Positions 40,913 to 42,556 of a stretch of DNA of 64,000 nt are shown here, one piece after another (positions within the stretch are counted from its first letter, which is position 1; each line of letters opens with the position of its first letter). This DNA comes from Actinomyces slackii (GTDB taxonomy: Bacteria > Actinomycetota > Actinomycetes > Actinomycetales > Actinomycetaceae), in the NCBI RefSeq assembly GCF_900637295.1, contig NZ_LR134363.1, forward strand, positions 1,984,001 to 2,048,000. The letters are read 5' to 3'. The translations under genes and the position numbers were made by a program. The notes beneath the pieces are model-generated. The model searched no databases. It was not told the origin of the DNA and saw only the letters and a list, made by a program, of their open reading frames with translations.

Positions 40913-42556
40913 GTGGCTTCTTCCACTGCGACGCGTCAGCGCCCCGAGCTGACCGACGACGTCGACGAGACCGTTGAGGACGAGGACTTCGACCTCGATG
41001 AGGACGAGGACTTCGACAAGGACTCCGAGGACGATGAGGAGGACGAGGACTACGACGGCGATGACGACTCCGAGGAGGAGGACTCCGAGGACGAGGATGA
41101 GGAGGGGCCCGACTCCCAGGCCCCTGAGGAGGATGAGGGGCCTGCCCCCGAGCTGCGCGACTACTACCTGGATGTGAGCCTGGAGGAGAACGGGGACGGC
41201 ACCAAGCGCCACCCCTTCAATACCGTGGCCTCTCTCAAGGGCGTGCGCCTGGCTCCCGGGGCCACGCTGTTCATCCGCTCACGCACGGTGGTCGAGGACC
41301 TGGAGATCGCCGGTCACGGCACCATTGAGGAGCCCATCACCCTGGCGCCCTACGGGCACGGCCCCGTGCCCCGCTTCGTCATCGGGGACTCCGAGCCCAT
41401 GGTGGCCCGCGACTACCTGGCCCACAACGGATACATCTTCCGCGGCTGGGTCATCAAGGGCATCAAGATGCAGCCCTCCATCGCCGCCCTGACCGGCGAG
41501 CTGGAGCGCATGCGCCGCGAGGAGGCCGAGCGGGCCGCCGCCAAGAAGGCCGGCAAGCGCTCCAAGACGGACAAGGACGGCTCCTTCACCGTCTCGGACA
41601 CCGATGAGGGCGATGAGCCCGCCCAGCGGGTTGTCACCGCGGGCGCCACGGCGGACCCGGTCAAGGACTACCTCAAGCAGATCGGCAAGGTGGCGCTCCT
41701 CAACGCCGAGCAGGAGGTGGAGCTGGCCAAGCGCATTGAGGCCGGCCTGTACGCCGAGCACCTGCTGGCCGAGGAGGGCAACGACCTGCCCTCCAAGCTG
41801 CGCCGCGAGCTGCACTGGGTGGCCCAGGACGGCCAGCGGGCCAAGAACCACCTCCTGGAGGCCAACCTGCGCCTCGTGGTGTCGCTGGCCAAGCGCTACA
41901 CCGGCCGCGGCATGCTCTTCCTGGACCTCATCCAGGAGGGCAACCTGGGCCTGATCCGGGCGGTGGAGAAGTTCGACTACACCAAGGGCTTCAAGTTCTC
42001 CACCTACGCCACCTGGTGGATCCGCCAGGCCATCACCCGCGCCATGGCCGACCAGGCCCGCACCATCCGCATCCCGGTGCACATGGTGGAGGTCATCAAC
42101 AAGCTGGCCCGCGTCCAGCGCCAGATGCTCCAGGACCTGGGGCGCGAGCCCACCCCCGAGGAGCTGGCCGTCGAGCTGGACATGACCCCGGAGAAGGTCA
42201 TCGAGGTCCAGAAGTACGGTCGCGAGCCCATCAGCCTGCACACGCCTCTGGGCGAGGACGGCGACTCCGAGTTCGGCGACCTCATCGAGGACTCCGAGGC
42301 AGTGGTGCCCGCCGACGCCGTGAGCTTCACTCTCCTGCAGGAGCAGCTGCACGCGGTGCTGGACACGCTCTCGGAGCGCGAGGCCGGGGTGGTCTCCATG
42401 CGCTTCGGCCTGACTGATGGCCAGCCCAAGACCCTCGATGAGATCGGCAAGGTCTACGGGGTCACGCGCGAGCGCATCCGGCAGATAGAGTCCAAGACCA
42501 TGTCCAAGCTGCGCCATCCCTCGCGCAGCCAGGTCCTGCGCGACTACCTGGACTGA
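40913..42556 (+). CDS. sigA: Primary RNA polymerase sigma factor with an unusual beta-helix-like N-terminal insert
   Basis: 547 residues. GTG 40913 has GAAAGG at 6 nt. Residues about 12-78 are an almost continuous Asp/Glu run. Residues about 83-185 do not resemble any sigma region; they read like the entry of right-handed parallel beta-helix proteins ([56 protein letters not shown]). A basic linker ([16 protein letters not shown]) follows. The sigma core from 248 on is normal: region 1.2 [16 protein letters not shown], 2.1-2.4 [13 protein letters not shown] through [14 protein letters not shown], region 3, and 4.2 [20 protein letters not shown]. It directs housekeeping transcription. Followed by a strong terminator. 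Confidence 0.95.

Follow-up and report, generated by a model that had tools for sequence, protein, structure and literature searches.

The window analyzed here is a stretch of 64,000 nucleotides from the genome of Actinomyces slackii (assembly GCF_900637295.1, contig NZ_LR134363.1, positions 1,984,001 to 2,048,000 of the forward strand), in which a plus-strand gene encodes the primary sigma factor of this bacterium, a protein of the SigA type. Between an acidic N-terminal tail and an ordinary sigma core, this protein carries a compact segment that is homologous to the entry of right-handed parallel beta-helix enzymes (Table 1). The initial annotation, which was made from the sequence alone, had proposed a beta-helix-entry-like segment between the tail and region 1.2, and matches in the PDB, profile comparisons with shuffled controls, structure prediction and a fold search all bear this proposal out. 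As analyzed below, the closest relatives of the segment are found within large fucosidases.

Table 1. Features of the sigma factor locus (coordinates within the window).
Feature	Residues	Coordinates	Strand	Basis
Putative ribosome-binding site, AAAGGA		40902..40907	+	Sequence; 5 bases upstream of the GTG start
Primary sigma factor gene, SigA type, GTG start	547 amino acids plus stop	40913..42556	+	NF004561; Pfam sigma regions 1.2-4
Acidic N-terminal tail	1-78	40913..41146	+	Asp/Glu content; fast-evolving, length-variable
Captured beta-helix-entry / GH29-type module	82-186 (R82 to about M186)	41156..41470	+	Homology, profiles, model, tree
Helix-forming, charged linker	187-232	41471..41608	+	Substitution rates (dN/dS), composition, first AlphaFold2 model
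Conserved stretch before region 1.2, ending ..VVTAGATAD	233-247	41609..41653	+	dN/dS 0.07
Sigma core, regions 1.2, 2, 3 and 4	248-547	41654..42553	+	PF00140, PF04542, PF04539, PF04545 above cut-off

The protein matches NF004561, the NCBIfam model of the actinobacterial housekeeping sigma factor, with 791.5 bits against a cut-off of 582 (E 5e-238), and Pfam recognizes all four regions (1.2, 2, 3 and 4) that are characteristic of primary (group 1) sigma-70 factors. It is the only SigA-type match in the A. slackii genome, that is, the single housekeeping copy. Counting this gene, the 3.2-Mb genome contains 2 genes with sigma region 2, a very small sigma set; the second one (G000:C1:2938167-2938358, minus strand, within a frame of 337 amino acids) we infer to be an extracytoplasmic function (ECF) sigma factor. 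Among the 6 Pfam matches obtained for the sigma protein up to E 10, none was to region 1.1, and none of the Pfam families recognizes residues 82-186.

Upstream of region 1.2, the tail and the linker are both rich in charge: in the tail, 44 of the 77 residues from 2 to 78 are Asp or Glu (computed charge about -41), and the linker contains 10 acidic and 10 basic residues, with a helix predicted at its start at low confidence (AlphaFold2, sigma rows alone). The stretch that directly precedes region 1.2 shows similar letters in the SigA sequences of the other genera compared. The segment is in frame with the sigma core, as initially noted: the frame is open in the A. slackii genome from the GTG at 40913 through the core, and a frame or start artefact was dismissed on this ground. 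Codons for an ERNS-like sequence directly before the start are common to most of the loci that were compared. An internal start past the module, at about M200, was rejected as not conserved because several species have Ile or Leu at this position (LERIRRE, LDRIRRE, LDRLRRE). The upstream neighbour of the sigma gene (39566-40807, minus strand) resembles a polyprenyl synthetase and the downstream one (42896-43969, plus strand) a secreted trypsin-like protease; both were named by eye from their translations.

The homology of the segment is apparent already from single-sequence searches. A phmmer search of the PDB with residues 82-200 retrieved the lacto-N-biosidase TnX (7v6m, E 1.5e-4), the PL6 enzyme BcAlyPL6 (7dmk, E 2.2e-4) and the lacto-N-biosidase 6kqs (E 2.4e-3), whereas the next matches (E 0.44 and 0.94) seem unrelated; a profile built from 30 sigma sequences produced PDB matches with E 1.9e-4, then 2.7e-4 (6kqs) and 3.1e-3 (7dmk). 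In hhalign comparisons, the 30 sigma rows aligned with 7 beta-helix entries with a probability of 98.2 (score 83.6) and with 6 GH29 modules with a probability of 99.4 (score 125.9, 110 columns), against maxima of 0.45 and 2.7, respectively, for 50 column-shuffled sigma profiles. Known enzyme entries are thus recognized by sequence, with a span that runs from R82 to about M186; the originally suggested boundaries, about residues 83-185, fit the numbering from the GTG at 40913 and needed only this small shift at either end.

Another line of evidence comes from structure prediction. With distant kin added to the alignment, AlphaFold2 produced a model of the module with a predicted local distance difference test score (pLDDT) of 82, exceeding 80 for about residues 82-171. 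This second alignment included 22 of the 28 sigma loci (near-identical ones were omitted). Of the 14 viral loci, 11 were used; L195 was dropped as unlike the rest, and L187 and L188 because they share their contigs with L189 and L191. When the resulting model was used as a Foldseek query, all of the 23 best matches were beta-helix-type enzymes, albeit with modest scores, so the predicted fold agrees with solved beta-helix entries; no other family was prominent in this search, in which an absent row excludes nothing.

The model obtained from the sigma sequences alone was of low confidence, which weighs against the homology, and together with the silence of Pfam it is what one would expect if the resemblance were due to chance or to low-complexity convergence and the segment were disordered. 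We consider this highly improbable in view of the significant PDB matches, the collapse of the hhalign scores upon shuffling and the confident model obtained with the distant kin. A disordered model, a region 1.1-like model or a lack of profile similarity, any of which would have spoken against the initial annotation, did not emerge, apart from that single low-confidence prediction. No stacked complete coils follow the entry, since the segment is over by about residue 186 and the sigma regions begin at 248, and therefore we do not term the protein a beta-helix protein.

The closest non-sigma copies of the module are stretches of about 110 residues within open reading frames of about 1100-1500 residues. 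In the eight loci that were examined (L151, L153, L154, L155, L015, L018, L019 and L021), the module invariably follows an alpha-L-fucosidase domain (GH29, Alpha_L_fucos) that scores above the Pfam cut-off, and in 7 of the 8 an F5/8C domain does so as well, the value for L155 being slightly below. In L151 and L153, a further F5/8C domain comes directly after the module, which accordingly stands alone there rather than opening a long beta-helix. Other non-sigma matches lie at the start of beta-helix-like frames, in line with the initial suggestion that modules of this type belong to exoenzymes. Three scans for viral copies found no match, and three others yielded 5, 2 and 7 loci. One of the GH29 fucosidases with the same module near its C-terminus is encoded inside the genus Actinomyces itself (L154, G182:C1:2099500-2105500).

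In a maximum-likelihood tree of 97 columns and 30 rows (8 of the 30 sigma sequences, 8 GH29 modules, 7 beta-helix entries and 7 viral sequences), the sigma and GH29 rows are separated from the beta-helix and viral rows by a split with an ultrafast bootstrap of 100. This is the one split reported with support; in the drawn topology, the sigma sequences fall inside the GH29 group, a placement for which no support is quoted. With their end-to-end profile match and shared clade, the sigma copies behave as members of the same family as the GH29 accessory modules, and this refines the initial view: judged by sequence, the nearest kin are these short modules and not the starts of full beta-helices. 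Given that hhalign and the tree agree on this kinship, the transfer likely proceeded from exoenzyme to sigma factor.

The module is present in all 49 genomes of the genus that were searched, including 47 of 47 good ones, and the copies are 78-93% identical to that of A. slackii; a scan of named genomes with sigma-specific patterns retrieved 28 loci, all 28 titled Actinomyces (among them A. bovis, A. israelii and A. oris). In the draft sequence of G172 (L052), and likewise in A. ruminis (L131), the module is found in a frame of 373 amino acids and the sigma core in a separate frame of 272, probably due to a sequence error. Across the family, the segment was detected in 28 of 151 genomes, 12 from the genus and 16 from others that span 9 genera, and across the order in 16 of 396, namely 6 from the genus and 10 others; in a phylum sample of 396 genomes, the only match was the A. 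slackii genome itself.

Sigma factors with the module were sought also outside the genus: none of the 18 non-genus loci fetched from the family (L014-L031) contains the sigma core motif, and no such sigma factor was found among the 6 order matches checked out of the 10. The comparison of SigA N-termini across the family, which the initial annotation had proposed as a check, led to the same picture, with the module fixed in Actinomyces and undetected in 34 other genera, whose 40 N-termini gave nothing better than E 0.68 and 0.53 in an unfiltered hidden Markov model search. Each N-terminus was taken as far as the nearest stop, the contig end or the limit of the sequence retrieved; those of L087, L091 and L115 terminate at contig ends, so that two of the genera (g10 and g34) are represented by possibly incomplete N-termini. 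We read this distribution as the outcome of one event at the root of Actinomyces, in which the housekeeping sigma factor captured a module from an exoenzyme. Specifically, it is highly probable that the sigma factor of the ancestral Actinomyces acquired a domain of about 105 residues, and that this domain either derives from the accessory modules of GH29 alpha-L-fucosidases, which are themselves cut-down beta-helix entries, or has its immediate ancestor in common with them.

Since this capture, the module has evolved under constraint. We compared the ratios of nonsynonymous to synonymous substitution rates (dN/dS) in 29 sequences (406 pairs, with those outside the usable range of synonymous differences, pS, dropped and 364 to 385 kept per region; part of the core is missing from the rows of L131 and L136). 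The median is 0.55 for the acidic tail, 0.23 for the module and 0.31 for the linker, as against 0.07 for the stretch that precedes region 1.2 and 0.06 for the core. The length of the module is almost constant across the genus, at 105-106 residues, compared to 59-121 for the tail, and 74 of 131 positions are invariant among 30 sequences. Furthermore, 30 positions, including R122, H149, R154, F155, R166, K182, K185 and M186, are conserved in at least 95% of the 30 sigma rows, while each recurs in no more than 1 of 15 non-sigma relatives. Together, the dN/dS values, the constant length and the sigma-only positions indicate that the module is clearly under purifying selection, less strict than that on the core, and has a surface of its own.

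Conceivably, the module could be a passive spacer, a stable fold that merely separates tail and core and is maintained in sequence for folding alone. Its dN/dS, well above that of the core, fits this idea, as do the Lys/Ala-rich stretches that occupy the place in sister genera and imply that a fold is not required at that position. Conservation at 30 positions that are not common to relatives of the same fold, and a nearly constant length over the genus, are harder to explain in this manner, and we put the chances of a mere spacer at roughly one in four. Alternatively, the module might have retained a binding capacity from its ancestor among the exoenzymes, for instance towards sugars or an intracellular polysaccharide precursor, through which housekeeping transcription would be coupled to such a signal. 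The relatives are indeed parts of glycan-active enzymes and the sigma-only positions suggest a dedicated surface. The positions common to sigma factors, GH29 modules and beta-helices, however, consist for the most part of Gly, Pro, Tyr and Asp and look structural, and we know of neither a function nor a binding site of the GH29 accessory module; we regard sensing as improbable, appreciably more so than a spacer role.

What the captured domain does can be sketched with due caution. In the holoenzyme, by analogy with other primary sigma factors, the region 1.1 of which is a DNA mimic in the RNA polymerase channel, the acidic tail would lie as a DNA mimic in the main or downstream channel of the polymerase, which is positively charged. 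The module would form a compact, rigid, roughly neutral platform that joins the tail to the core and docks on the RNA polymerase or on the sigma core through the surface that is conserved in the sigma copies only, and it would determine when, as the open complex forms, the tail is driven out. This scheme is tentative, and we give it somewhat better odds than a spacer, though still clearly less than even; origin and mechanism considered as one explanation come closer to even, while still falling short of it.

A counterpart of the module was sought in the beta prime subunit (RpoC) by comparing L204-L224 with L196-L203 and L221; the 9 outgroup genomes come from other families, and one Actinomyces genome was entered twice, as L223 and L224. 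In the Actinomyces subunits, QDMIIGxYxLT is followed by an acidic loop of 9 residues, and the C-terminus carries a short extension, both features being absent from the 9 outgroup genomes, among which L221 has a C-terminal extension of its own. A large partner insertion can be dismissed because only the 9-residue loop and C-terminal residues differ; compared with these 9 genomes, beta prime shows no obvious partner feature for the module.

Instead of the polymerase channel, the docking surface might serve another transcription factor, for which RbpA, CarD and a genus-specific protein are candidates. RbpA binds sigma in actinobacteria and is present in the A. slackii genome, and the sigma-only conserved residues would suit such a contact. 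Unlike the module, which is limited to the genus, RbpA is found beyond it, as the control match in Corynebacterium glutamicum illustrates; we consider factor docking unlikely, slightly more so than a spacer.

Foreign domains at this position of SigA are not confined to Actinomyces. In a genus represented by one genome (g12; L093, G012), the SigA N-terminus contains a repeat of about 88 residues, three more copies of which (44-52% identity) are found in a frame of 559 amino acids in the same genome (G012:C29:10183-10953). The repeat occurs also in long open reading frames of other genera; it has no Pfam name, and we take it to be Ig-like or surface-type. In genus g26, both SigA N-termini (L107 and L120) include SAP / Rho_N domains above the Pfam cut-off, with up to three Rho_N stretches, and L105 (g24) has a sub-threshold HeH match only. 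The g12 repeat is a second, independent foreign module at the same position; with the Actinomyces module and the SAP/Rho_N domains, at least three kinds of domains have entered this place, and the SigA N-termini of the family look like a hotspot of domain exchange. A bolder proposition is that different lineages have filled this N-terminal slot with foreign modules of different kinds (a beta-helix entry, a surface-type repeat or SAP/Rho_N repeats) and that the Actinomyces module, as a regulatory gate, responds to a ligand of the sugar type or to an envelope precursor and so tunes all housekeeping transcription, which we deem as improbable as sensing itself.

Few bacterial regulators are as conserved as the primary sigma factors. 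The presence of a folded, exoenzyme-derived domain under purifying selection in the sole housekeeping sigma factor, in every genome searched of a genus, amounts to a clean natural experiment on the role of the SigA N-terminus in actinobacteria, which is poorly understood, and the existence of sister genera that lack the module permits direct domain-swap and deletion tests. The case also illustrates a route by which the transcription machinery can acquire domains from secreted proteins.

Comparison with the known relatives delineates what is old and what is new in this protein. The GH29 modules, which lie behind the F5/8C domain of the fucosidases, are alike end to end over about 110 residues, and the hhalign pairing with L014 shows 35% identity. 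Unlike the sigma copies, they reside within large enzymes that are seemingly secreted (cell-wall-binding repeats are present in L151), contain no sigma domains and retain the KxGT step, at which the sigma copies are one residue shorter. The N-terminal entries of GH136 lacto-N-biosidases (7v6m, 6kqs/6kqt, 7v6i, 5gqc) and of PL6/PL9-type lyases (7dmk, 5olr) share with the sigma module the motif order YY.D..G.GT..PF, PG..l, GT..PI...YG.G..P and the predicted fold of the first turn. In these enzymes, however, the entry opens a long beta-helix, whereas in the sigma factor it ends after about 105 residues and gives way to the charged linker and the core.

Among sigma factors, region 1.1 of the enterobacterial and Bacillus proteins is a helical bundle and the supposed gate of the DNA channel. 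The Actinomyces protein has in common with these the acidic element and the position upstream of region 1.2, but lacks a Pfam match to region 1.1, and the folded part of its module is beta-rich. The SigA proteins of other genera (NF004561, PRK05901) share the complete regions 1.2 to 4, with a core 84-93% identical to that of A. slackii across 131 genes from other genera of the family (a single 198-residue fragment scores 97%), as well as the conserved stretch ahead of region 1.2. Their N-termini, inspected by eye, are mostly Lys/Ala-rich and acidic; Actinomyces has the module and no Lys/Ala-rich stretch, so that it may be this Lys-rich part that the module has replaced, and not region 1.1 in folded form, as the initial annotation had considered. 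To our knowledge, no other sigma factor has such an N-terminal domain: the Actinomyces SigA is a primary sigma factor of a known type, and its N-terminal domain is the new part.
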